Shown: in pieces, positions 5,513 through 42,443 of the stretch | Layout of the letters: each line of letters starts with the position of its first letter | How positions within the stretch are numbered: the first letter of the stretch is position 1 | Source of the DNA: Myxococcota bacterium | GTDB lineage: Bacteria > Myxococcota_A > UBA9160 > UBA4427 | Assembly: GCA_030748735.1 (NCBI GenBank) | Contig: JASMLK010000043.1 | Coordinates: forward strand, 1-64,000 | Length of the DNA: 64,000 nucleotides | Direction of reading: 5' to 3' | Position numbers and translations under genes: made by a program | Notes under the pieces: model-generated | Seen by the model: the letters and a program-made list of their open reading frames with translations, nothing else | Database searches by the model: none | Told to the model about the DNA's origin: nothing

Positions 5513-7444
5513 TCAGCCCGAAATGCCGAAGCGCTCGTGCATGAGCGTGAAGCTCACGATGCGGTTCAAGAAGGTGTCGCGCATGTTGCTGTCGATCGGC
5601 GTATCGCCGGTGAAGGAATCGAGCATCCCGCGAACCATGGCGGGGTCGAAGATCAGCTGCTCGTCCAGCAGCTTCGACTGGACCACGTCCATGTAGAGTT
5701 CGTCGAGCGCATCGTTCTCCCCCTCCTTCGCGGGTGGCGTCGAGAACGGGTGCTTCTCACGGTTGTAGACCGGGTCGATGATCACGTCCTTCGCGGCTTC
5801 ACGCAGCACGTGCTTTTCCCGCATGCCGTTGATCTTCATGCGGATCGGCGTTCCAGCACAGAACTCGGCCACGACCGTGTCGAGGAACGGCACCCGGCCC
5901 TCGATCGAATGGGCCATCTCCATCCGATCACTCAGGAATGTGAGGATGAAGTTGGGCAGGTGGATGCGCGACCACGTATAGAGGGATTGATTCAGGGGGT
6001 CGCGACCTTCGAGACGCTCTCGAATCGGGAGACGTCCGAGCGTCGAGAGAATCGGGTTGATGCCCGCGACCTGTTCCGCAAATTCCTTGCGGAAGATCGC
6101 GGTGGTCTCGTGACCCATCAACGAAAAGACGTGCATCCACGACGGCACGAAACCGAGCAGGCGCTTCACGGGGTCGAGGATTGGGAGCGATTCCTGCTCG
6201 TCAGGTACGAAGCCGGGGACGGCCTTGTTGCTTTCCTGCATCTCACCGAGGAGCTTCGCGACGATTTCCGGGTCCTGGCCCTCACTGTTGTAGAGCAGGA
6301 CATCCCGGCGAAACGGCGGGTAGCCACCGAGCATCTCATCGGCACCCTCCCCGGTGAAGACCACCTTGATGCCCGAATCGCGCACCTCGCGGCTGAGCAG
6401 ATACTTCGCCACGCCATGCCCATTGATGAAAGGTGTTTCCGAATGCCAGACCGCATCGCTGTAGGCGTCCGCGAGATCGCGGCTCGTCACCGGCACCGGA
6501 TGGAAGGTGGAACCGCAAAACTCGGCCTGTTCTCTGGCCAGCTGTGACTCGTCGAAGAGGTCGTCGTCGAAGCAGAGGGTGTAGGCCCGGATCGGGCGAT
6601 CCATCATCTGCTGCGCCAGTCCCAACACCGAACACGAATCGATGCCACCGCTCAGGTACGACGCCACCTCGACGTCGGCCACCAGGCGCTCGCGCACCGC
6701 ATCGCCCAGGGCCTCGCGAAAACCGTCGACGACTTCCTCGTCGGTGCGATCGTCGCGGGCGAGTTCTTCTGCGGTCGGGAATTCCTGGTCCCAATAGGGA
6801 TAGGTCGACACCTCGCCGCGGTGGGCGACCGCATAGTGCCCGGGCGGCACGGTATAGATGCCGTCGAAGAGCGAACGCGATTGAGGCCGGAACATGTAGG
6901 CCTCTTGCTGCACGGCCTCGTAGTTCCAGCGCGCGGGAACACCCAGCGCGAGCAGCGACTTGATCTCCGACGCGAAGTAGATGCCGCCTTCGTGCACCGT
7001 GTAGAAGAGCGGCTTGATGCCGAAGCGATCGCGGATCGCGAACATCAGGCGGTTCTTGCGGTCAGCGATCACCGCCGCGAACTCACCGCGCAGATGCTTG
7101 CCGAGGTGCATGCCGTCACGGTGGTAGAGGTGAAGGGCGATCTCGCTGTCGGAATCCGTCTGGAAGACGTAGCCCTGCGACTTCAGTTCCTCGCGGATGC
7201 CGCGGTAGCCGTAGAACTCACCGTTCACGACCATCTGCACGTCACCCGACGCGTTCGACATCGGCTGCGCACCGTTGTCGAGGCCGATGATCGAAAGGCG
7301 CGTGTGCCCCAGGAACCAGCGGCCGTCGGGAGCGACCCACTTGCCACGTGAATCCGGACCGCGGTGATGGATCGCCTCGAGTGACGCATCGAGCCTCGCA
7401 TCATCGACCGCGCGCTCGAGCATACCTCCCACGAAACCGCACAT
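5513..7444 (-). CDS. asnB: Asparagine synthase (glutamine-hydrolysing)
   Basis: A 643-residue cytosolic class II amidotransferase that makes asparagine from aspartate, ATP and glutamine. Seen: the N-terminal nucleophile Cys2 (MCGFVGG), the glutaminase domain to about residue 215 (HHRGPDSRG, RLSIIGLDNGAQPM, VNGEFYGY), and the synthetase domain with PP-loop SGGIDS at 265-270 and FTGEGADEMLGGYP further on. Length and order are those of AsnB. Some relatives amidate other carboxylates in biosynthetic clusters, but no such cluster is next to it. The start at 7444 is the only one that leaves Cys2 exposed. A GST gene lies 48 bases upstream on the same strand. Confidence 0.94.
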   Translation of the reverse strand: MCGFVGGMLERAVDDARLDASLEAIHHRGPDSRGKWVAPDGRWFLGHTRLSIIGLDNGAQPMSNASGDVQMVVNGEFYGYRGIREELKSQGYVFQTDSDSEIALHLYHRDGMHLGKHLRGEFAAVIADRKNRLMFAIRDRFGIKPLFYTVHEGGIYFASEIKSLLALGVPARWNYEAVQQEAYMFRPQSRSLFDGIYTVPPGHYAVAHRGEVSTYPYWDQEFPTAEELARDDRTDEEVVDGFREALGDAVRERLVADVEVASYLSGGIDSCSVLGLAQQMMDRPIRAYTLCFDDDLFDESQLAREQAEFCGSTFHPVPVTSRDLADAYSDAVWHSETPFINGHGVAKYLLSREVRDSGIKVVFTGEGADEMLGGYPPFRRDVLLYNSEGQDPEIVAKLLGEMQESNKAVPGFVPDEQESLPILDPVKRLLGFVPSWMHVFSLMGHETTAIFRKEFAEQVAGINPILSTLGRLPIRERLEGRDPLNQSLYTWSRIHLPNFILTFLSDRMEMAHSIEGRVPFLDTVVAEFCAGTPIRMKINGMREKHVLREAAKDVIIDPVYNREKHPFSTPPAKEGENDALDELYMDVVQSKLLDEQLIFDPAMVRGMLDSFTGDTPIDSNMRDTFLNRIVSFTLMHERFGISG

Positions 7445-9389: not shown

Positions 9390-10229
9390 TTGAGCGACTT
9401 CATCTACGTGCGCGAAGGCGACGTGTTCGCGCCGACCGAGTGGACCGGAAGCCCATGGAGCGCGGGCTTCCAACACGGTGGTCCCATCAACGCCCTGTTC
9501 GCCACCGCAGCCCAGGAAGCGGCGAGTGAAGCGGGGCTTCGACCGGTCCGGCTGACCGTCGACCTGTTTCGCCCCGTACCTCAAGTGCCACTCGAACTTT
9601 CGAGACGATTCGTTCGCAAGAGCAGGCGGATCGCGGTCGTCGATGCAGCGCTCTCCCTACCCGATTCGGGCGAGACGATCAGCACCGCGAGCGCCGTGCT
9701 GCTCGCGCCGAGCGAAGGGGCGCCGCGAAGTTGGACCCACACGCCGGCCCCGCCCCTCGACCTCGCCGGTGCCGAGCCCGAGGAGTTCATGCCGAAGGCG
9801 ATGCGCGACAAGTATCCACCGGGCTTCCACTGGAGTTTCGACGTCCGCATGGGCGCGGACGAACACGGAGCGGCGGCCTGGATCACGACACCGCTCGACT
9901 TCCTCGAAGGTGTACCCATGACGCCACTGCAGCGTTCGGCCGCGGTGGCGGATCTCACCTTCGGCCTTTCGGGCCATTCCCTCCTGCGACAACAGATCGT
10001 CGACGTGGATGCCTGGCGCGTGCCGATGATCAACGTGGACACGACCATCTATTGGGAGCGCCCGCCGGTTGGTGAGTGGTTCGGCTTTCGCCATGCGCTG
10101 CTGACCGACCACGAGGGGATCGGCGTCGCCGAAGTCGACCTCGCCGACGCGGAGGGGCGACTCGGCCGTTCGCTCCAGGCCATGCTCGCCAAGACGGCGC
10201 CCCAGAACGGTGAGGGCAGCTCCTCCTAG
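9390..10229 (+). CDS. Acyl-CoA thioesterase-like protein (TesB-type double hotdog)
   Basis: 279 residues. The opening WSAGFQHGGPINALFATAAQ and VRLTVDLFRPVPQVPLEL match the N-terminal hotdog of the TesB-like family (4HBT_3), and the C-terminal half (INVDTTIYWERPPVGEWFG, then EGIGVAEVDLADAEGRL) matches the second hotdog. Family members hydrolyse acyl-CoA thioesters in the cytosol. The start is TTG, 6 bases after the preceding stop. The gene closes the nitroreductase-SnoaL-thioesterase group and is followed by a hairpin. Confidence 0.75.
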   Translation: MSDFIYVREGDVFAPTEWTGSPWSAGFQHGGPINALFATAAQEAASEAGLRPVRLTVDLFRPVPQVPLELSRRFVRKSRRIAVVDAALSLPDSGETISTASAVLLAPSEGAPRSWTHTPAPPLDLAGAEPEEFMPKAMRDKYPPGFHWSFDVRMGADEHGAAAWITTPLDFLEGVPMTPLQRSAAVADLTFGLSGHSLLRQQIVDVDAWRVPMINVDTTIYWERPPVGEWFGFRHALLTDHEGIGVAEVDLADAEGRLGRSLQAMLAKTAPQNGEGSSS

Positions 10230-10234
10230 AGGTC

Positions 10235-10275
10235 CGCCTGCCCCCTGCTTCGCTGTGGAGCGAGCAGGCAGGGCC
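10235..10275 (+). terminator. Long imperfect stem-loop after the thioesterase gene
   Basis: GCCTGCCCCCTGCTTCGCT and AGCGAGCAGGCAGGGC pair around GTGG with one or two bulges. The stem lies just after the stop at 10229 and before the CoA-transferase gene. No T-run follows, so it is either a weak terminator or an RNA-stabilising hairpin. Confidence 0.4.
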
Positions 10276-10355
10276 CGCCCGATCGACTACGTTGGTGCGC
10301 CTCGTGTCGCGCAGCCGCGGCTGTTTCAATACTGATCGAGAGTTGGAGATCCCCC

Positions 10356-11546
10356 ATGCCCGGTCCCCTCGACGGCTTTCGCGTCATCGACATCAGTGAA
10401 GTCATCTCCGGTCCGCTCACCGCGATGGTGCTCGCCGATCAGGGCGCAGACGTGATCAAGGTCGAACCGCCGGGCCACGGCGAAGAGAGTCGACAGCTCG
10501 CGAACTACCGCGCCGGCATGGCTGCGCTCTTCGCCAACTGCAATCACGGCAAGCGCTCGATCGGCATCGACCTCAAGCACGAACAGGGCCTCGAACTCTT
10601 CTATCAGTTGGTCCGCACGGCTGACGTGGTGGTGCAGAACTGGCGACCCGGTGCAGCCGAAAGGCTCGGGGTCGGCGAGCAGGACCTGCGAGAGATCAAT
10701 CCCGACATCATCTATGCCTCGATCAGCGGCTATGGCGAGTCGGGGCCCTACGCAGACCGGCGAGGCTACGACCCGATCTTTCAATCGCTCACCGGCTATG
10801 TCGCGTCGCAGGTGAACCCCGAGATCCCGATTCCCGATCTCGTACGCAACGCCGTCGTCGACAAGGCCACTTCGTATTCGCTCGCACAGGGCATCACTGC
10901 CGCGTTGCTCGCGCGCGAGCGCGGTGCCGGCGGTCAGCACGTGCGGATCGCGATGCTCGACGCCGGCCTTTCCTTCTTCTGGCCCGACGGCATGTTGCGA
11001 CACTCACTCGTCGGCGACGACGTCGAGAACTTCGTCGTCCCTGGCGAGCGCTACCAGCTGATGGCGACGAAAGACGGGCAGATCATCCTGTGGATGGGCA
11101 CGGCGGACCAGATGCGCGCCGGTCTTCGCGCCGTAGGACGCGACGACATTGCCGACGACCCGAAACAACGCGGTCGCTCGATGCTCGACGAAGCGCAGGA
11201 AAGCGCGCGCGCCGAGGCCATGCAAAGTGGTCTCGCAGAGTTCACCACCGAAGAGGCCTATCGACGACTCGTCGAACACGAGATCCCCGCCGCACCTGTG
11301 CTGGATCACGAACAGGTCTTCGTAGACCCGCAGATCACACACAACGAAGGCATCGTCGAAGGCGAGCACCCGGTGTACGGCCGCTATCGGCGCGCGCGTG
11401 CAGCCGTGCGCTTTTCGGGGACAGCCACCACGACCACCGCGGCACCGCCTCTCTACGGCGAACAGTCCCAAGCGATCTTGAACGAACTCGGCCTATCCCA
11501 GGAAGCGCAGCAAGCCTTGCGCGAAGCAGGCGCGGTGACCGCCTGA
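10356..11546 (+). CDS. CaiB/BaiF (type III) CoA-transferase
   Basis: A 396-residue protein starting PLDGFRVIDISEVISGP and ADQGADVIKVEPPGHGEE, the standard opening of family III CoA-transferases. These move CoA between carboxylic acids through an aspartyl-CoA thioester. The segment NAVVDKATS places an aspartate at residue 169 where the family has its catalytic aspartate. The late TLF-type lid and the RAAVRFSGT-like C-terminus are also present. Full family length. The start ATG follows GGAG by 7 bases. The next gene, an exported amidase, lies 42 bases downstream and may share the transcript. The acid substrate is unknown. Confidence 0.9.
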   Translation: MPGPLDGFRVIDISEVISGPLTAMVLADQGADVIKVEPPGHGEESRQLANYRAGMAALFANCNHGKRSIGIDLKHEQGLELFYQLVRTADVVVQNWRPGAAERLGVGEQDLREINPDIIYASISGYGESGPYADRRGYDPIFQSLTGYVASQVNPEIPIPDLVRNAVVDKATSYSLAQGITAALLARERGAGGQHVRIAMLDAGLSFFWPDGMLRHSLVGDDVENFVVPGERYQLMATKDGQIILWMGTADQMRAGLRAVGRDDIADDPKQRGRSMLDEAQESARAEAMQSGLAEFTTEEAYRRLVEHEIPAAPVLDHEQVFVDPQITHNEGIVEGEHPVYGRYRRARAAVRFSGTATTTTAAPPLYGEQSQAILNELGLSQEAQQALREAGAVTA

Positions 11547-11588
11547 TCCTCGAAGGCCCCCGACCACACGAACCCACAGGAGTAAAAG

Positions 11589-13118
11589 GTGCCGATCCGC
11601 CGAAGGAACTTCGTTCAGTCCAGCCTCGCCCTCGCCGGTGGCACAGCGATTTCGGGCTGTGCGTCGTTTCCCCTTTCGTCACGCGCCGCATCGGAACACG
11701 AGTACACGCGCTTCGACGCGATGGATCTCGCGCGGCTCATCGCGCGCGGTGAAATCTCTGCGAGTGAAGCCCTCGAATGGGCAATCGACCGGGCCGAGAT
11801 GGTCGACCCCAAGCTCAACGCCATCGTGGTACGGGACTTCGATCATGCACGCGCGCGCGCGCAACGCGGCGTGCCAGACGGCCCGCTCGGCGGCGTCCCC
11901 TTCCTCTTGAAGGACCTGTGGATCTCGCTCGAAGGAACCGTCACCACGAACGGCTCGCGCTTGTTCGCCGACGCACGTGCGCAGCAATCGAACACCCTGG
12001 CCGCACGCTATGAAGCGGCTGGGCTCGTGATCTTCGGCAAGACGGCGAGCCCCGAGTTTGGCTCGAGTTCATCGACCGAATCGCTGCTTCACGGCGACAC
12101 CCGAAACCCCTGGTCGCCCGAGCACAGCGCCGGGGGTTCGTCAGGCGGTTCGGCGGTGGCCGTCGCAACCGGCATCGTACCGGTCGCCCATGCAAGCGAC
12201 GGCGGCGGCTCGATCCGCATCCCGGCCTCCTGCAATGGCATCTTCGGTTTGAAACCCTCTCGCGGCAGGGTCCCGACGAGCGACACCGTCTTCGACAAGA
12301 GCGCGGGCGTCGGGATCAACCACGTCGTGTCGCGCAGCGTGCGCGACAGTGCGTTACTCCTCGACCTGACGTCGACGCCGCTACTGGGCGACCCCTATAT
12401 CGCTCCGCCGCCACCGAGGCCCTACCTCGAGGAAGTCGGGCGCGACCCTGGACATCTGCGCATTGGACTCCAACGCGAGGCCGCTCTCCCGGTCGAGACC
12501 CACGCCGACTGCGTTCGGGCCGCCGAAGACGTAGCGAAACGCTGCGAGGCGCTCGGCCACGAGATCGTCGAAATCGCCCCGCCGCCGATACCGGGCGAGA
12601 GCCTCTGGCGTGCGTTCGAGGTCTTGCGGGGCGCGGGGATCGCCATCGCAGTGCACAGGCGTGAAGAGGAACTCGGACGCAAGGCCACCCCCGACGATCT
12701 CGAACCTCAGAATTGGGGCGCCTACCAGCAGTCGAACGAGTACAGCGCGATCGACTTCGAAGTCGAACGCCAGAACCTCTACACCCTCGCTCGCAAGATC
12801 GTCGCCCACCAGCAGCACGTCGACATGGTGCTGTCGCCCACACTGGCTGCGCCGCCGCCGAAGATCGGCGTGCTCAACCCGAACACCTCGAGCGAGAGCT
12901 TCGCCAACGCCGCCACGTCGATGGCGGGCTACACGATCGCCTACAACGTGAGCGGCCAGCCGGCGATGAACGTTCCGCTCGTCTGGAACGACGCAGGAAT
13001 GCCGATCGGCACGATGTTCGTCGGACGCCCTGGCGACGAAGGCACGTTGTTCCGCCTCGCTCGTCAGTTGGAGATCGCGCATCCATGGTCGCAACGGCGA
13101 CCGCCGGGATTCGCGTAG
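11589..13118 (+). CDS. Exported amidase-signature hydrolase (Tat signal, possible lipoprotein)
   Basis: A 509-residue amidase-signature enzyme, hydrolysing an amide or related C-N bond. Catalytic residues visible: Lys108 (PFLLKD), the GGSSGGS loop with the cis-serine (184/185), and the nucleophile Ser208 in DGGGSIRIPA. The N-terminus RRRNFVQSS followed by a hydrophobic stretch and SGC (Cys24) reads as a twin-arginine signal with a possible lipobox, so the enzyme likely acts in the periplasm. The start is GTG with AGGAG 7-10 bases upstream. A second, non-exported amidase is at 31078-32481. Confidence 0.92.
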   Translation: MPIRRRNFVQSSLALAGGTAISGCASFPLSSRAASEHEYTRFDAMDLARLIARGEISASEALEWAIDRAEMVDPKLNAIVVRDFDHARARAQRGVPDGPLGGVPFLLKDLWISLEGTVTTNGSRLFADARAQQSNTLAARYEAAGLVIFGKTASPEFGSSSSTESLLHGDTRNPWSPEHSAGGSSGGSAVAVATGIVPVAHASDGGGSIRIPASCNGIFGLKPSRGRVPTSDTVFDKSAGVGINHVVSRSVRDSALLLDLTSTPLLGDPYIAPPPPRPYLEEVGRDPGHLRIGLQREAALPVETHADCVRAAEDVAKRCEALGHEIVEIAPPPIPGESLWRAFEVLRGAGIAIAVHRREEELGRKATPDDLEPQNWGAYQQSNEYSAIDFEVERQNLYTLARKIVAHQQHVDMVLSPTLAAPPPKIGVLNPNTSSESFANAATSMAGYTIAYNVSGQPAMNVPLVWNDAGMPIGTMFVGRPGDEGTLFRLARQLEIAHPWSQRRPPGFA

Positions 13119-13212
13119 TTCCCCCGTCTCGGGCTCGCCGGAACGCATTGCTCTTCGCTCCGCCACCTGTCATCTTCGTGTCCATCCAAACCAGGGGAAG
13201 GAGCGACCCGCG

Positions 13213-13764
13213 GTGCAAGACGCGTTCATCGACCCGGCGTTGAGCCTCGGCCTTCGCATCTTCCTGCTGGGCCTGTTCGCGCGGTCGGTCTACGGCAAGC
13301 TCCGCGACCCGGTGTCGTTTCGCGCGACGGTTTCGGACTACGAGCTCGTTGCGGCAAGCTGGGTCACCCCGGTTTCGGGGGCGCTGATCGCCGCCGAAAG
13401 CGTCATGTTGGTCACCCTGCTGCCTTCCGCATCCCATGTCTGGGCCGCGCGCGCGTGCGCCGTGTTGTTGTTGCTCTACAGCGGCGCCATTGCGTGGAAC
13501 CTCGCTCGCGGTCGCCGCGAAATCGACTGCGGTTGCGCGGGGCCGCTTGCGCAGAGCGGTCTGCACGAGTGGCTCGTGGTTCGCAACGGCTTCTACTTCG
13601 TCTTTGCCGTGACCGCCTCGCTGCCCGTTGCGGCGCGGCCGCTCGGTCTGCTCGACGGGTTCACCGTGCTGCTCGCAGCGAGCACCCTGCTCACCCTCGC
13701 GGTCGCGATCGACGGCCTCGCAACCGGCGCCGCACGCACGCGGCTGGGTGAGGCCGACCGATGA
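13213..13764 (+). CDS. mauE: MauE-like membrane protein of amine dehydrogenase maturation
   Basis: A 183-residue membrane protein with about four hydrophobic segments and a Cys pair (EIDCGCAGPL) between the second and third, as in MauE of the DoxX/VKOR-like superfamily. MauE works with MauD to form the many disulfides of the TTQ amine dehydrogenase light chain and stabilise it. The start is GTG (gcggtgcaagac). It overlaps mauD by 4 bases (13761-13764) and begins the five-gene operon through 16675. Confidence 0.87.
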   Translation: MQDAFIDPALSLGLRIFLLGLFARSVYGKLRDPVSFRATVSDYELVAASWVTPVSGALIAAESVMLVTLLPSASHVWAARACAVLLLLYSGAIAWNLARGRREIDCGCAGPLAQSGLHEWLVVRNGFYFVFAVTASLPVAARPLGLLDGFTVLLAASTLLTLAVAIDGLATGAARTRLGEADR

Positions 13765-14381
13765 ACGAAGCGCTGCTGATCTCGAACATCGTGCTCTGGG
13801 TCGTGGTTGCCGTGATGGGTTTCGTGATCCTCGCACTGGTTCGACAAGTGGGCGTACTGGTCGAGCGCGTCGCACCCGCCGGTGCGCTGGCCGTGCAGGA
13901 AGGCGCGAAGGTCGGCGAAGCCGCTCCCAGGCTCACCGTCGACACACTCGGAGGCAAGCGGATCGAAATCGCGGCCGCGCGCAGCGACGAACGCGCGACG
14001 CTGCTCTTCTTCCTTTCACCCGATTGCCCGGTCTGCGACTCGATCCTGCCGGCGCTGCAGTCGCTGGCACGACACGAAGCCGAGCGACTGGATGTCGTCC
14101 TCGCCAGCGATGGGGCACGCGGCGACCACGAAGCGTTCGTCCAGCAGAAGGGTCTCGAGGCGCTGCCTTACGTCCTCTCGACTGAACTCGGGATCGCATA
14201 CGGCGTGAGCAAGCTGCCCTTCGCCGCACTGATCGATCACGAAGGCACCCTCCGTGCCCGTGGACTGGTGAACAGCCGCGAACATCTCGAAAGCCTGCTC
14301 GAAGCCATGGCGCTCGGCGTCGGTTCGATCCAGGAGTGGGCGGAGCGCGAAACACGCATCCAACTTCGAACCGACCACTGA
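13761..14381 (+). CDS. mauD: MauD-like thioredoxin-fold disulfide protein
   Basis: 206 residues: one N-terminal membrane anchor (SNIVLWVVVAVMGFVILAL), then a periplasmic thioredoxin domain with the redox motif CPVC in LFFLSPDCPVCDSILPAL (about residues 86-100) and the cis-proline segment SKLPFAALID. MauD is needed to make or isomerise the light-chain disulfides of TTQ amine dehydrogenases. The start ATG overlaps the mauE stop. The heavy-chain gene follows after 34 bases containing a GGGAGG ribosome binding site. Confidence 0.9.
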   Translation: MNEALLISNIVLWVVVAVMGFVILALVRQVGVLVERVAPAGALAVQEGAKVGEAAPRLTVDTLGGKRIEIAAARSDERATLLFFLSPDCPVCDSILPALQSLARHEAERLDVVLASDGARGDHEAFVQQKGLEALPYVLSTELGIAYGVSKLPFAALIDHEGTLRARGLVNSREHLESLLEAMALGVGSIQEWAERETRIQLRTDH

Positions 14382-14415
14382 ATCGCAGGGCGAGTTCCTG
14401 GGAGGGAAGGAAACC

Positions 14416-15690
14416 ATGTCGACAAGACCCGGCCGCACGATGTGCATGAGCCTTGCTCTGGCTGTTGCGTGCACCTCCGCGTTTCCCCTGCTCGCAAGAG
14501 CGGAACTCGCCGCGGAAGAACTCGGCCGCTCCCTTTCGGTGGGGCCGCCCGGCGACCACTGGAGCTACTACCTCGACTTCGAGCTCGGCACCTTCAACGG
14601 GCGCTACGTGTTGATGGACGCCGACACGACGGACTACCTCGCCCACGTGTCCGCGGGGCAGATGCCCACCCTCGACATCGCACCGGACGGCAAGGAGATC
14701 TACGTCACGAGCACTTCATACGAGTACCTCGTCGACGGCGATCGTCACGACTTCGTCACCATCTTCGACACCACCGACTATGCGAGCCAGGGCCGCATCG
14801 AACTTCCTTCGGGCAAGCGCGCACTGATGGCCTCGCTCCGGCGCTCGACCCTGCTGCGCGATTCGCGCTTCCTCGTCGTCTACAACTACACCCCCGCAAC
14901 TTCGCTGTCGGTCGTCGACCTCGAGCGCAGGGAGCACGTGATGGATGTCGACACGCCGGGCTGCCATCTGGTCTACCCCACCGGCGAGCGCGGCGTGTCG
15001 ATGCTCTGTGGCGACGGCAGTCTTCAGACCTATCACTTCGGCGAAGCCGGCAAGCTGCGCGCGCAGGAACGCAGCAAACCGTTCTTCGATCCCCAGGTCG
15101 ATCACCTGAAGACGAACGCGGCCGCGATCGGGGACACCTGGTACTTCGTCAGCTATTCGGGCGACGTCTATCCCGTCGACCTTTCGGGCGAATCACCCCG
15201 CTTCGAATCGCCCTGGGCGCTGGTCGATCACGACAAGAAGCCCGCCAACATCATCCAGGCGCTGTTCACGATGGGAAAGGCGGGGCCGTGGCTGCCCGGC
15301 GGCATGCAGCTCGCCGCGACCCACGAAGCGCGCGGCGAGCTCTACGTGATCATGCACCCGATCTTCTGGAGCGAGAGCAAGGGCGATCACGACTTTCCGG
15401 GACCGGAAGTCTGGGTCTATGACATTCGAAGCAAAGAACGGGTGCGGCGCATCAAGAGTCGCGGCGTCGTGATGTCGATCAACGTCACGCCCGACGACGC
15501 GCCCGTGCTCACAGCCTTCGGGGCCGACATCAAGACCGAAGCCACCCGGCTCGAAGTCTACGACGCGATCAGCGGCAAGTTCCTGCGAGAAATGGTCGAG
15601 TACGGACAAGCCGCGCTCGAATTCGAACCCGTCGCGCAACCGGGTAACGCGCTCAGCCTCGTTGACGCAACCAAGGAGAACGCGCAATGA
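14416..15690 (+). CDS. TTQ amine dehydrogenase heavy chain (aralkylamine/methylamine type)
   Basis: A 424-residue exported protein: a signal peptide (MCMSLALAVACTSAFPLLARA) followed by the seven-bladed propeller typical of the heavy subunit, with repeated strands such as VSAGQMPTLDIAPDGKEIYV and FVTIFDTTDY. The heavy chain has no cofactor. It holds the light chains in an alpha2beta2 periplasmic enzyme that oxidises primary amines to aldehyde plus ammonia. The gene sits between mauD and the light chain and overlaps the latter by 4 bases. Light-chain spacing (next entry) favours the aralkylamine type over methylamine dehydrogenase. Confidence 0.9.
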   Translation: MSTRPGRTMCMSLALAVACTSAFPLLARAELAAEELGRSLSVGPPGDHWSYYLDFELGTFNGRYVLMDADTTDYLAHVSAGQMPTLDIAPDGKEIYVTSTSYEYLVDGDRHDFVTIFDTTDYASQGRIELPSGKRALMASLRRSTLLRDSRFLVVYNYTPATSLSVVDLERREHVMDVDTPGCHLVYPTGERGVSMLCGDGSLQTYHFGEAGKLRAQERSKPFFDPQVDHLKTNAAAIGDTWYFVSYSGDVYPVDLSGESPRFESPWALVDHDKKPANIIQALFTMGKAGPWLPGGMQLAATHEARGELYVIMHPIFWSESKGDHDFPGPEVWVYDIRSKERVRRIKSRGVVMSINVTPDDAPVLTAFGADIKTEATRLEVYDAISGKFLREMVEYGQAALEFEPVAQPGNALSLVDATKENAQ

Positions 15691-16256
15691 ACCCGTTCGA
15701 TCGGATCAGTGACCAGGTCGTTCGCGCGTTCGCCCAGCGCACTTCCCGCCGAGGCATCCTGGCGCGCGCGGGCACGATGTTGGTGGGCGCGGCCAGTGTT
15801 CCGTTGCTTCCCGTTGCCCGTGCGGCAGCGCAGGTCCCCGACGGCAAGGGCGTCCCGCCGACGACCTCCGACAACCCCGAGGAAGACCCCGGCAATCCGC
15901 GCAGCTGCGACTACTGGCGCTACTGCGGCATCGACGGGTTCTTGTGCGCCTGCTGTGGCGGCTCCGCGAACGCCTGCCCGCCCGGCAGCCTGATGTCACC
16001 CGTCACCTGGGTCGGCACCTGCGAGAACCCCGCCGACGGCAAGCACTACGTGATCTCGTACAACGACTGCTGTGGCAAGCAGGGCTGCAAGCGGTGCTTC
16101 TGCAATCGCAACGAACGCGAAGCACCCGAGTACTGGCCGCAAAAGAACAACGAGATCCACTGGTGCCTGGGCACGCCCAACACATCGTATGTGTGCTCGG
16201 TCGCCGTGGTCATCGGAACCGCTCTCGAAGAAGACGCGGTGGTGAGCGACCCCTGA
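15687..16256 (+). CDS. TTQ amine dehydrogenase light chain, aralkylamine-type
   Basis: A 189-residue precursor with a Tat leader (RTSRRGILARAG) and the Cys-rich catalytic subunit. Visible: CDYWRYCGIDGFLCACC, Trp108 (VTWVGTC) and Trp159 (IHWC), the two residues that form tryptophan tryptophylquinone, and the active-site acids Asp83 and Asp127 (YNDCCG). Numbering and spacing run one behind aralkylamine dehydrogenase (84, 109, 128, 160, 172). In methylamine dehydrogenase the last interval is two residues longer. At the position of the active-site threonine there is Ser171. It converts R-CH2-NH2 to aldehyde in the periplasm and passes electrons to a small carrier. Confidence 0.92.
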   Translation: MNPFDRISDQVVRAFAQRTSRRGILARAGTMLVGAASVPLLPVARAAAQVPDGKGVPPTTSDNPEEDPGNPRSCDYWRYCGIDGFLCACCGGSANACPPGSLMSPVTWVGTCENPADGKHYVISYNDCCGKQGCKRCFCNRNEREAPEYWPQKNNEIHWCLGTPNTSYVCSVAVVIGTALEEDAVVSDP

Positions 16257-16675
16257 TGCGCACCGCCCTGCCCTCTCTCTTGTTGCTCAACTTCTTGTTC
16301 GCGACGGTTGCGTACGGCGACGACAGCCAGGGAGACCCGCGCCTCGACTACATGCTGCAGTGCCAGGGATGTCACGGCGCAGACGGCGGTGAGCGCCCGA
16401 GCGCTGGGGTCCCGACCCTCGTCGACCTGGTGCCGCGCTTTCTCGGCAGCGACGAGGGGCGCGAATTCGTGCTGCGCGTCCCCGGGGTCTCCCAGGCGCC
16501 GCTGTCCAACGAAGCCCTGGCCTCGCTGATGAACTGGCTGCTCGAGACCTACCGCAGCAGCGAAGCCGCGCCGCAGTTCACGCGTTACCGCGCGAGCGAA
16601 GTCGCCCGTGCGCGTGAACTCGGCCCGTTCGATGTCACCGCGACGCGAGCCCGCCTGCTCGCGGATGAGCGCTGA
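16256..16675 (+). CDS. Small exported c-type cytochrome of the amine dehydrogenase operon
   Basis: 139 residues with a signal peptide (MRTALPSLLLLNFLFATVAYG) and one haem site CQGCH (Cys36, Cys39, His40). It starts on the stop of the light chain and is the likely electron acceptor of the dehydrogenase, or the next carrier to the oxidase; no amicyanin or azurin gene is present. Odd point: the usual distal methionine after a proline-rich segment is not found where expected (VPGVSQAPLSNEAL). The remaining methionines (33 and one in SLMNWL) are in unusual places. The last 41 bases overlap the convergent DUF1214 gene. Confidence 0.85.
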   Translation: MRTALPSLLLLNFLFATVAYGDDSQGDPRLDYMLQCQGCHGADGGERPSAGVPTLVDLVPRFLGSDEGREFVLRVPGVSQAPLSNEALASLMNWLLETYRSSEAAPQFTRYRASEVARARELGPFDVTATRARLLADER

Positions 16676-17945
16676 ACAGAGCGGCATCCAGGTCCAGCTC
16701 TGCGGCGTCTCCGATCGGCACCACGTTCGTCACGAGGGGCGCGATGTCTTCTTCCGGCAGGAGGAAACGCCAGAACACCATGCCGAAGGGTCGGCCCTCG
16801 GTGTCGATCCAGTTCGGCACACCGGGATCGCGATCGGCGATCACGATCTTGAAACTCCCGTCGCGTTCGAGCCTGGTCTGTTTGCGATTGAGGGACGTTC
16901 GTCGGTTGGCGTAGTCGAGTGTCTGCAGATAGCGGTTCCAGAGAACCACGCTCGCGAAGCGACACTTCGGGAAGCGTCCGCGCACGACCAGGGCTTCACC
17001 CGGCTTGACCACGAAAGGCGCCATCGAATAGACATTGTCGACGGCGGCATAGCCCGTGTCGGTGTTGTCGTGACTCTGGCGACTGGGCTGCGGGAACTGA
17101 TTCGGAACGCGCGACACGTACTTCGGCATCGTGCCGCCACCGAACGGTTGGATCGTCGTTTCGAGAAAGCGCCCCACCCGGCCGAGCGCCGCAGCCAACT
17201 CCGCATCGCCCGCCCGCTTCGGCGGCGGGAGCGCCTTCAGCGGCTCGATCACGAGGGGGATGTGGTGCATCCGGTCGGCCGCAACACCCACTTCGCGTTC
17301 GTAGTAGTGGCGCGTACTGATGCTGCCCGCGTCGGGGGCGAGTTCGAGCCAGTTGCCGGGCTGCTTCTTCGCGCTGACGATGATCTCGAAGTTGCCGTCC
17401 GCGTCCGTTTCGAATTGGGTGTCGTTGAGGGTTGCACCGACGCCCGTGGACATGCCGCCCTCGGCCGTTCCGCGTTCGACCGTGAATGATGTGTAGGTCG
17501 CGTCGGCAAGGTTCCCGCGAATCCGATAGCTGTGTTCGGCGTCGACCCAGGCGTGGTGGTAGATCGCGTCGGGATTGTCGCCGAGAAGCTTCTTTTCGGG
17601 CGTGACGAATCGTTTGAAGTTGGGTCGCGCGCGGTCGCCTTCGAGGAAGATCTCGAGGGCGTGCTGTAACGCGTGCATCACGCTGCGCCGGGCATCGGCG
17701 AGGTCGCCCGGCGTCGAAATCCGCCAGACCGGATCGGCGAAGCCCGCGTCGATTCTTGCCAACACGGCGCGCAGGTCGGCGAGCGCCTGTTCGGACGCCT
17801 CTGTGCCGGCCAGGGAGGACGCGCCGTGTGCGTCGGCTGAGGCCGTCCCCGCAAGCAGGCCGGTCGTGAGCCCCGATGAAACAAGCGCTCCGAGCCCCGC
17901 TCCTGCGAAGCCCGTCTTCATGAAGTCCCGCCGGTCGATCGTCAT
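16635..17945 (-). CDS. Exported DUF1214 (and DUF1254-like) protein
   Basis: 436 residues from ATG at 17945, with a clear Tat signal (TIDRRDFMKTGFAGAGLGAL). The C-terminal half carries the DUF1214 pattern: FASVVLWNRYLQTLDYANR, RLERDGSFKIVIADRDPG, WIDTEGRPFGMVFWRFLLPE. Proteins of this type are periplasmic and mostly of unknown function; some are linked to lipid or envelope metabolism. The frame is open 56 codons upstream, but only the chosen start gives the signal peptide. The gene ends inside the 3' end of the cytochrome gene. The partial gene at the window start seems a remote relative. Confidence 0.82.
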   Translation of the reverse strand: MTIDRRDFMKTGFAGAGLGALVSSGLTTGLLAGTASADAHGASSLAGTEASEQALADLRAVLARIDAGFADPVWRISTPGDLADARRSVMHALQHALEIFLEGDRARPNFKRFVTPEKKLLGDNPDAIYHHAWVDAEHSYRIRGNLADATYTSFTVERGTAEGGMSTGVGATLNDTQFETDADGNFEIIVSAKKQPGNWLELAPDAGSISTRHYYEREVGVAADRMHHIPLVIEPLKALPPPKRAGDAELAAALGRVGRFLETTIQPFGGGTMPKYVSRVPNQFPQPSRQSHDNTDTGYAAVDNVYSMAPFVVKPGEALVVRGRFPKCRFASVVLWNRYLQTLDYANRRTSLNRKQTRLERDGSFKIVIADRDPGVPNWIDTEGRPFGMVFWRFLLPEEDIAPLVTNVVPIGDAAELDLDAALFSAHPRAGGLASR

Positions 17946-18129
17946 CCCCGCACCCCTTCCGCATTGGCGATTCATCGCGTTCGCGAAGGCGCGCGTGTCA
18001 CGCTTCACGATCGAAGAGCGATTGAACCGCATTCGGGGTCGCCGGAACACCCGCCGTTTCGCGAACGCCAGCGCGCAGCGGAGCGCCAGGCGGGGCACGG
18101 AGCGCGCCGACACGCGCGTGACATCACGG

Positions 18130-40209: not shown

Positions 40210-41328
40210 ATGGGACGTCGTCTCGTACTCGTGGGCGGAGGGCATGCCCACGTCGAATTCATTCGGCGTTGGGCAGATGCGTCGGTCGACGACGTGGAAC
40301 TCGTGGTCTGCGATGCCAACCCCCGACCGGTCTATTCAGGCATGGTGCCGGGCGTGGTCGCCGGGCAGTACCGCAAGCAGGAAGTCGAAATCGACCTCGC
40401 GGCCGTCTGCTCGCGGGCCGGTGCGAGGTTCGTCCGCGAGGCCGTGGTTGATGCCGACGCCGAAGCGCGTGTCATCACGAGCGAAGGCGGCGAACGCATC
40501 GACTTCGATCTCGCCTCGATCGACGTCGGCTCGACGGTGGTCGGACTCGACGCACCGGGCGTACGCGACTTCGCCCTGGCCTCACGGCCGATCGGTCGAC
40601 TGATCGCCGAGATCGACGACTGGATCGCACGCGCAGCCGCGCAGGGGGCAGGCGTCCCACTCCACGTGGTCGGCGGTGGAGCGGCGGGTGTGGAGCTCGC
40701 CTTCTGCATCGATGCACGCCTCGCCGGCAGCGCGAAACGCGACGCCTCGGCATCCCCTGCGGTCGAAATCGTTTCGTCGGACGAACACGTCCTCACCAGT
40801 GCACACCCGCGCGTGCGTGACCGCGTGACCCGCGCTCTCGCACGCCGTGGCATCGGGCTGCGAACGGGCACCCGCGTGGTCGCGGTGCGCGAGGACGCGG
40901 TCGAACTCGACGCAGGCGAAACGTTACCGAGCCAGGGTGTCGTCTGGGTGACCGGGCCGGCGGCACACCCTCTGCCCGCTGCGTCGAAGCTTCCCTGCGA
41001 CGATCGCGGCTTCGTTCGCATCCGGCCGACCCTCGAAGTCGAAGGGCACGACCACGTCTTCGCCGTGGGGGATTGCGCCAGCCTACCCGGGCTCGCGAAG
41101 GCCGGGGTCTACGCCGTGCGCGCGACCCCGATCCTCGACGACAACCTGCGCGCTCGATTGCGCGGACACGAGCTGCGCGACTACATTCCGCAGCGCGATT
41201 TTCTATCGCTTCTCAATCTCGGCAATGGCACGGCGATCGGTACCAAGTGGGGCGTCGTCTACGAAGGACGCGCCGCCATGTGGCTGAAGGATCGAATCGA
41301 CCGTGGCTTCATGGAAAGGTACCGATGA
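40210..41328 (+). CDS. Pyridine nucleotide-disulfide-type FAD oxidoreductase (SelD-fusion-like domain)
   Basis: 372 residues with two Rossmann motifs, RRLVLVGGGHAHVEFIRRW at the start and LHVVGGGAAGVELAF near 160, and the FAD-binding FAVGDCASLPG near 285. The GGGHAHV opening and the PVYSGMVPGVVAGQY segment are typical of the NDH-2-like domain that is often fused to SelD or stands beside it. No redox-active CxxxxC pair is seen, so it is quinone- or acceptor-reducing rather than disulfide-reducing. The frame opens earlier but ATG 40210 begins the first Rossmann strand. It overlaps the next gene by 4 bases (ATGA). Confidence 0.85.
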   Translation: MGRRLVLVGGGHAHVEFIRRWADASVDDVELVVCDANPRPVYSGMVPGVVAGQYRKQEVEIDLAAVCSRAGARFVREAVVDADAEARVITSEGGERIDFDLASIDVGSTVVGLDAPGVRDFALASRPIGRLIAEIDDWIARAAAQGAGVPLHVVGGGAAGVELAFCIDARLAGSAKRDASASPAVEIVSSDEHVLTSAHPRVRDRVTRALARRGIGLRTGTRVVAVREDAVELDAGETLPSQGVVWVTGPAAHPLPAASKLPCDDRGFVRIRPTLEVEGHDHVFAVGDCASLPGLAKAGVYAVRATPILDDNLRARLRGHELRDYIPQRDFLSLLNLGNGTAIGTKWGVVYEGRAAMWLKDRIDRGFMERYR

Positions 41329-42443
41329 ACACCAAGGCTTCTGCACGCGAAACCCTCGCACTCCGCGTTCTCTCGATCGTGCTTCTCACCGGGCTCGCTC
41401 TCGGTCTCGTCAGCGCGTGCGCCAATGACGGGATGGGGCTCTCGAGCCTGACGGCGAAGGCACGCAGCGCTGCTGACGTCGACGCCCTGCGCCATCAGGC
41501 CGCGGCGATCTTCGGGGCCCTGCCCAGCCAGATCAGCAACCCGGCCAACGGCCTGACGGACGCCAAGATCGACCTCGGCCGACAGCTCTACTACGACGAG
41601 CGCCTTTCCAAGAACCACGACATCGCGTGCAACAGCTGCCACCTGCTCGACAACTTCGGCCAGGACAGCGAGCCCACCTCGCCCGGTCACCGCGGCCAGC
41701 GCGGGGGACGCAATTCGCCGACGGTCTACAACGCAGCCGGCCATGTCGCGCAGTTCTGGGATGGTCGCGCTCCCGACGTCGAAGCCCAGGCCCAGGGCCC
41801 CGTGCTCAACCCGATCGAAATGGCGATGCCGAGCGAAGCCGCCGTGCTGACGGTCTTGAAGTCGATCCCCGGCTACGTCGAACAGTTTCCACAGGCCTTT
41901 CCCGGCGAGGAGCCAGCGCTTACGTACGCCAACATGGCACGCGCCATCGGCGCGTTCGAACGACGCCTGATGACACCGGGCCGCTTCGATGCCTTCGTCG
42001 AAGGGGACCCCAACGCACTCTCGTCTGCCGAGCTCGACGGCCTCGAGCTCTTCATCCAGACCGGCTGCCCGACATGCCACATGGGTTCGACCTTCGGCGG
42101 CACGCTCTATCAGAAGCTCGGTGCGATGAAGCCCTACCCCACGAACGACCAGGGACGCTTCGACGTGACGGGAAATGAATCCGACCGCTTCGTGTTCAAG
42201 GTGCCGTCCCTGCGCAACATCGCGGAGACCGGGCCCTACTTCCATGACGGGTCGGTGGGAAGCCTCGAACAAGCCGTTTCGATCATGGCCGAGCACCAGC
42301 TCGCCAAGACGCTCACACCCGAGCAGAACGCTTCGATCCGCACCTTCCTCGAAGCGCTCACGGGTGAAGTCGACGAGGCCTACATCGCGATGCCGGTCCT
42401 CCCGGCCAGCGGCCCGACGACGCCGGCGCCGAATCCGAACTGA
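41325..42443 (+). CDS. Di-haem cytochrome c peroxidase family lipoprotein
   Basis: 372 residues. A hydrophobic leader ends in VSAC (Cys32), a lipobox. There are two c-haem sites: CNSCH (Cys102, Cys105, His106) and CPTCH (Cys248, Cys251, His252). Family residues Trp145 (AQFWDGRAP) and Glu165 (NPIEMAMP) are present, as is the late FKVPSLRNIAETGPYFHDGS. Members reduce H2O2 (CcpA) or modify proteins (MauG). Here the acceptor partner may be the oxidoreductase encoded just upstream, whose stop overlaps this start. It sits in the periplasm, anchored by lipid. It could serve as a MauG, but nothing but family membership supports that. Confidence 0.9.
   Translation: MNTKASARETLALRVLSIVLLTGLALGLVSACANDGMGLSSLTAKARSAADVDALRHQAAAIFGALPSQISNPANGLTDAKIDLGRQLYYDERLSKNHDIACNSCHLLDNFGQDSEPTSPGHRGQRGGRNSPTVYNAAGHVAQFWDGRAPDVEAQAQGPVLNPIEMAMPSEAAVLTVLKSIPGYVEQFPQAFPGEEPALTYANMARAIGAFERRLMTPGRFDAFVEGDPNALSSAELDGLELFIQTGCPTCHMGSTFGGTLYQKLGAMKPYPTNDQGRFDVTGNESDRFVFKVPSLRNIAETGPYFHDGSVGSLEQAVSIMAEHQLAKTLTPEQNASIRTFLEALTGEVDEAYIAMPVLPASGPTTPAPNPN

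Follow-up and report, generated by a model that had tools for sequence, protein, structure and literature searches.

A five-gene operon of a Myxococcota bacterium predicted to encode a tryptophan tryptophylquinone-dependent amine dehydrogenase of a third heavy-chain branch

Organization of the operon

Analysis of a 64-kb stretch of DNA from a Myxococcota bacterium (GenBank:JASMLK010000043.1; contig C43 of genome G000, where L, G and C numbers denote loci, genomes and contigs, respectively), referred to as the window, revealed a five-gene unit on the plus strand (bp 13213–16675) encoding MauE, MauD, the heavy and the light chain of an amine dehydrogenase and a c-type cytochrome, in that order. 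A first-pass annotation of the window had described the unit as an operon for an aralkylamine-type dehydrogenase with Ser in place of an active-site Thr. Its coordinates, gene order and compactness were borne out: mauE and mauD overlap by 4 bases, the heavy- and light-chain genes by 4 bases and the light-chain and cytochrome genes by 1 base, while mauD and the heavy-chain gene are 34 bases apart. Relatives of the unit, treated below as branch-mates, were carried by loci L002, L003 and L172, the host of L002 belonging to the same genus as that of the window.

The first gene, mauE (bp 13213–13764, GTG start), encodes a MauE/DoxX-type membrane protein (Pfam MauE, 5.3e-24), the role of which is presumably in disulfide formation for the light chain, and mauD (bp 13761–14381) encodes a thioredoxin-like accessory protein with a CPVC motif (NCBIfam TIGR02661, MauD, 192.4 bits; cut-off, 188.6). 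The heavy-chain gene (bp 14416–15690) encodes a beta-propeller amine dehydrogenase subunit (Pfam Me-amine-dh_H, PF06433, 2.7e-41), and the light-chain gene (bp 15687–16256) a subunit (Pfam Me-amine-dh_L, PF02975, 4.1e-48) predicted to carry tryptophan tryptophylquinone (TTQ) built from Trp108 and Trp159. The last gene (bp 16256–16675) encodes a small c-type cytochrome with a single CXXCH motif (CQGCH), a likely electron acceptor; a Pfam scan of it gave no match, and tblastn found homologues in the vicinity of most related light chains, though not of all. The family assignments of the other four genes are firm. A PF02975 light chain having Trp108, Trp159 and Asp127 thus stands in one operon with a PF06433 heavy chain, as in TTQ amine dehydrogenases in general. 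The nearest NCBIfam models of both chains were those of methylamine dehydrogenase (MADH), with scores under the curated cut-offs (TIGR02658, 142.8 versus 454.45 bits for the heavy chain; TIGR02659, 167 versus 196.85 bits for the light chain).

Active site and cysteines of the light chain

The light chain was aligned without gaps to that of aromatic (aralkylamine) amine dehydrogenase (AADH), and by this alignment the following plus-strand codons were located: Asp83 (bp 15933–15935), the first TTQ tryptophan Trp108 (bp 16008–16010), Asp127 at the catalytic base position (bp 16065–16067), the second TTQ tryptophan Trp159 (bp 16161–16163) and Ser171 (TCG, bp 16197–16199), where AADH and MADH have Thr. 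The matching AADH residues are, in the numbering that we assume, 84-109-128-160-172, and the Cys-Thr of AADH aligns with Cys170-Ser171 of the window; in MADH (3c75), two additional residues lie between the second Trp and the Thr. The Asp and the Thr have catalytic roles in TTQ dehydrogenases. The Asp-Trp-Asp-Trp-Ser pattern, the cofactor residues and the cysteines are kept in the window, L002 and L003.

To place these residues in a wider frame, a light-chain set was used that consisted of 59 loci from a species-genome collection (most of them labelled as Alphaproteobacteria, Gammaproteobacteria or simply Proteobacteria), 57 stretches taken from 56 further genomes of the same class as the window and nine named plasmid records; after four duplicate loci were dropped and the window and the AADH segment added, 136 rows remained. 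The 59 collection loci had been found with patterns from the window light chain, so that they lean towards it, and 55 class rows by Pfam profile. Position 171 was occupied by Ser in 80 rows and by Thr in 54, with a gap in two, and the profile-found class rows were divided into 27 with Ser and 28 with Thr. On a light-chain tree of 102 of 134 rows, with this column masked, at least 10 changes between Ser and Thr were counted. The Ser facing the AADH Thr is therefore real, as the first-pass annotation had it, but its rank as a special trait was ruled out by its presence in 80 of 136 rows, and a residue so variable would hardly define the AADH family. Our literature search, which had little reach into subscription journals, found no paper on a Ser/Thr exchange in AADH; the accessible part of one article treats AADH isotope effects and does not name Asp128 or Thr172 (PMC4949571).

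The spacing of the five residues (intervals 25-19-32-12) was present in 115 of the 136 light chains, the window included. It does equal that of AADH, and the last interval does differ from that of the Paracoccus and Methylobacterium MADHs (14), as had been claimed, but the value 12 recurs in an MADH-type cluster of Indioceanicola, which has mauF and mauJ. Because of these two observations the pattern marks a TTQ dehydrogenase and not the aralkylamine type, and spacing was discarded as an AADH mark.

It was also noticed that the Asp83 position, which we take to be important in MADH biogenesis, is held by Gly in eight loci (L030, L032, L035, L045, L046, L048, L058 and L060) and by Asn in L172; on the 102-row tree, this position changed at least four times.

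The conserved part of the window light chain contains 14 Cys. Counted in 130 rows (the rows of Thermomicrobium roseum and L060 left out), Cys87 and Cys170 behaved as a pair, both being present in 104 rows and neither in 25, with L028, a row with an unread letter there, as the one exception. For Cys90 and Cys134 the corresponding numbers were 123 and 6, again with one exception. Of the 136 rows, 27 had no Cys87/Cys170 pair and a letter at position 171, which was Thr in 26 and Ser in one.

Descent of the two chains

A heavy-chain tree was built from 71 of 121 rows (one of the 121 repeats L187). The heavy chains of the window, L002, L003 and L172 formed one clade (support 100/99), in agreement with the suggestion of the first-pass annotation that the operon may be a new branch. 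Its sister was a large clade of unnamed, mostly proteobacterial TTQ dehydrogenases (96/86 jointly), and in the best tree the window clade lay outside the separate AADH clade (99/99). When the window clade was constrained to join MADH, the heavy-chain tree was rejected (p-AU 0.0144); joined with AADH, it was neither rejected nor favoured (p 0.104). The light chain alone rejected neither joint clade (p 0.155 for AADH, in a group including L058, which the tree nests there, and p 0.109 for MADH), so the phylogenetic separation from MADH that had been asked for is given by the heavy chain and not by the light chain. Judged from sequence, the window operon is a third heavy-chain branch, which stands outside the clade of methylamine enzymes and does not demonstrably fall within that of the aromatic amine enzymes.

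The branch has a mark of its own in the heavy chain, an insertion of 13 residues before the PWLPGG motif (bp 15250–15288, plus strand) that is common to L002, L003 and L172. The loop from PW to PGG is 28 residues long in these four, 13 more than in AADH, and this length occurred in none of the other 117 of the 121 rows; longer loops were found in L004, L016 and L020, and a group of five had 23. Heavy chains at least 51% identical were found only in G000, G096, G081 and G114 among 377 sampled genomes of the phylum.

Of the alternatives, descent and function as an AADH that oxidizes phenylethylamine, tyramine or tryptamine survives best, though we regard it as improbable. AADH is the best match of the heavy chain in the PDB both by sequence (4.7e-47, compared with 2.1e-30 for MADH) and by fold, the heavy-chain model (predicted local distance difference test, pLDDT, 84) giving AADH heavy chains as the best Foldseek hits (8.9e-30) and MADH next. 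With the light chain AADH came second, behind only the full-length MADH record 3c75, the match of which covers the leader too; over 108 conserved columns, 58 residues were identical to AADH and 49–50 to three MADHs. The AADH of Alcaligenes faecalis (2agl, 2h3x) shares both subunits, the Asp-Trp-Asp-Trp pattern with its spacing and the Cys90/Cys134 disulfide pair with the window. This pair, however, occurs in 123 of 130 rows and is hence no AADH mark, the heavy chain is identical to that of AADH at only 103 of 320 positions, and the Thr, the heavy-chain insertion and the gene order differ, as does the placement in the best heavy-chain tree. The label "aralkylamine-type" is accordingly not retained.

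Function as an MADH, for C1 or nitrogen supply, is far less probable. The MADH of Paracoccus denitrificans has both subunits, MauE, MauD and the cofactor residues in common with the window, its chains belong to the same protein families, and a joint light-chain clade was tolerated as given above. In contrast, the heavy chain rejects such a clade, and mauF, amicyanin, mauJ and mauG stand beside the P. denitrificans genes, whereas none of the four was found among the genes beside the window operon. Moreover, the P. denitrificans enzyme has the two-residue insertion and is without the Cys90/Cys134 pair, the reverse of the window, in which the column of MADH Phe55 is occupied by Gly.

Gene order, flanking genes and distribution

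The order E-D-heavy-light was seen, among the loci examined, only in the window, L002 and L003. Complete sets in the class and in proteobacterial loci are usually heavy-E-D-light, the order also of the annotated aau cluster on a Pseudomonas plasmid, and L172 has heavy-light-cytochrome-E-D. The operon is retained in L002, retained with different flanks in L003 and rearranged in L172. Downstream of the cytochrome gene, a DUF1214 protein is encoded on the opposite strand (Pfam); this gene and the flanking thioesterase, CoA-transferase and amidase genes are colinear in L002. In L003 the sole flank match, of 35%, was to the CoA-transferase and lay at the far end of the locus; in L172 no flank gene was found. 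The upstream amidase and CoA-transferase were considered as pathway partners, a role left unsupported by colinearity in L002 of the same genus only.

In uncultured Alpha- and Gammaproteobacteria (L004, L007, L013 and others), the TTQ dehydrogenases resemble that of the window in the light chain (43–63% identity, L002 and L003 aside), in often having Ser at the corresponding position and in belonging to the sister heavy-chain clade; they differ in loop length, 28 not being seen among them, and in layout, being mostly heavy-E-D-light or tandem, several with genes for a TonB receptor, an aldehyde dehydrogenase and a CoA ligase nearby. Tandem sets (heavy-light-heavy-E-D-light) were seen in the gammaproteobacterial L009, L010, L011, L014, L017, L028 and L031. 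In L007, L023, L005 and similar loci the TTQ genes lie near a TonB receptor, an aldehyde dehydrogenase and an AMP-dependent CoA ligase (Pfam scans covering the L007 copies only), with a TetR-type regulator too in L007 and L023; such loci look like a module for amine uptake and catabolism. In L193, a plasmid stretch of T. roseum, five very divergent open reading frames (ORFs) matched the light-chain profile, four of them keeping both Trp positions, and the heavy-chain profile found no match there.

A PF02975 light chain was detected in 57 of the 90 genomes of the window's class and in 64 of the 377 sampled genomes of the phylum, the seven outside the class being all of one genus. Together with the 59 loci of mostly proteobacterial labels, this contradicts the earlier statement that such enzymes are known from few groups. 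Most class light chains belong to clades other than that of the window; L002 and L003 carry the collection labels Myxococcota and Myxococcales. On Myxococcota and methylamine dehydrogenase, the literature search brought up only one paper, the part of which available to us reports mauA and mauB in the phylum Binatota (PMC8262859).

Cofactor maturation

A search with PF03150 (CCP_MauG) gave three matches in two proteins of the window genome, one encoded in the window (match at bp 41562–42008) and the other a 733-residue tandem di-haem protein on contig C138. The former (bp 41325–42443) is unlikely to be MauG, for it has Met at a column where MauG has Tyr, presumably as a ligand. The latter has Tyr in both halves at the column of the Tyr in the FYN of P. 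denitrificans MauG; as a maturation enzyme it is unproven and a neighbour of arsenite oxidase, its gene (L069:9091–11292, fused) adjoining arsenite oxidase genes including that of the large subunit. A MauG-like protein thus exists in the window genome, but none is tied to the operon. Immediately downstream of the AADH-type cluster of L056 there is a related ORF pair, and at the level of the genome L055 and L053 have one too; for L002 and L003, the best genomic matches to the tandem protein were partial (34% and 36%).

Among the 90 class genomes, MauG-like proteins and light chains showed no association: PF03150 was absent from 6 of the 57 that have a light chain and from 4 of the 33 that have none, and the best TTQ_mauG scorers of the class, G134 and G059, both had no light chain. 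Of 50 genomes bearing a TTQ light-chain locus (of the 59 collection loci), genomes the completeness of which is unstated, 18 lacked a CCP_MauG match (E ≤ 0.001). Members of tight groups are not independent here; all three tested members lacked it in each of the groups L043/L052/L059 and L045/L046/L048, and other groups were mixed (L037, L041 and L044 without but L050 with PF03150; L015 and L019 without but L024 with it). One of the 18, L019 (Erythrobacteraceae), has an in-frame stop (bp 6064–6066) between two heavy-chain pieces. As a positive control, each of the three MADH-type records had PF03150 on its plasmid; no match was found on the remaining five TTQ plasmids or on that of T. roseum, for which the chromosomes were not searched. 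It is possible that TTQ maturation in the 18 genomes is MauG-independent.

Proposed function

We consider it likely that the five genes encode a periplasmic TTQ-dependent primary-amine dehydrogenase of the third branch, which would be active, with its own cytochrome c receiving the electrons. It represents a genuine, if rare, branch within a known type of enzyme, its Ser is ordinary, and its substrate is probably larger than methylamine. The Gly at the Phe55 column, where AADH has Met, weakly suggests room for such amines, the column having been located by assuming a 31-residue leader.

The mechanism proposed for the window enzyme probably follows the reaction course of the solved MADH and AADH, on which it rests by analogy. 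MauE and MauD would help to form the light-chain disulfides, and the light chain, beside the beta-propeller of the heavy chain, would carry TTQ built from its two tryptophans. The amine would form a Schiff base with TTQ, Asp127 would take the proton, and the Ser171 hydroxyl may do the job of the Thr in the solved enzymes; the aldehyde and then ammonia would be released, and the small cytochrome c encoded by the next gene would receive the electrons.

Several observations weigh against this interpretation. None of the 90 class genomes, that of the window included, passed the TTQ_mauG cut-off for a canonical MauG. The Gly-for-Phe55 comparison sits in a loosely aligned loop, and the light-chain structure model is of low confidence (pLDDT 48.6). 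L172 joins the window branch by the heavy chain and not by the light chain, and it has Asn at the Asp83 position and Thr at the Ser171 position. No cytochrome match was found by tblastn beside the light chain of L003. No neighbour tells of the substrate, the upstream amidase and CoA-transferase being colinear only in L002, and genes for a TonB receptor, an aldehyde dehydrogenase or a CoA ligase were not among the window neighbours scanned (bp 9390–18113).

With respect to maturation, one may tentatively entertain a third functional branch with a substrate of its own, in a family that often completes TTQ with no dedicated MauG, through a shared MauG-like protein encoded in trans or through a route outside the MauG family; the 18 of 50 genomes lacking a CCP_MauG match, with the two tight groups in which no tested member has one, speak in its favour, but we hold it to be rather unlikely. 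That the complex is produced while its TTQ stays incomplete in the host, leaving it inactive or with another function, is very improbable: no dedicated MauG stands beside the operon and none in the genome exceeds the cut-off, but the cofactor residues and cysteines are kept in the window, L002 and L003, and the genome encodes the tandem di-haem protein, each half of which has Tyr at the column of the MauG ligand.

Conclusions

TTQ dehydrogenases of solved structure fall into two kinds, MADH and AADH, beside which the data presented here, read with the qualifications above, place a third heavy-chain branch. A Thr supposed to be key has been swapped repeatedly with Ser in nature. Of greater interest are the missing MauG and the wide occurrence of TTQ dehydrogenases in one uncultured myxobacterial class. 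With a MauG-family protein missing in many TTQ genomes, the rule that TTQ needs MauG becomes directly testable, and this is the most useful part of the finding.

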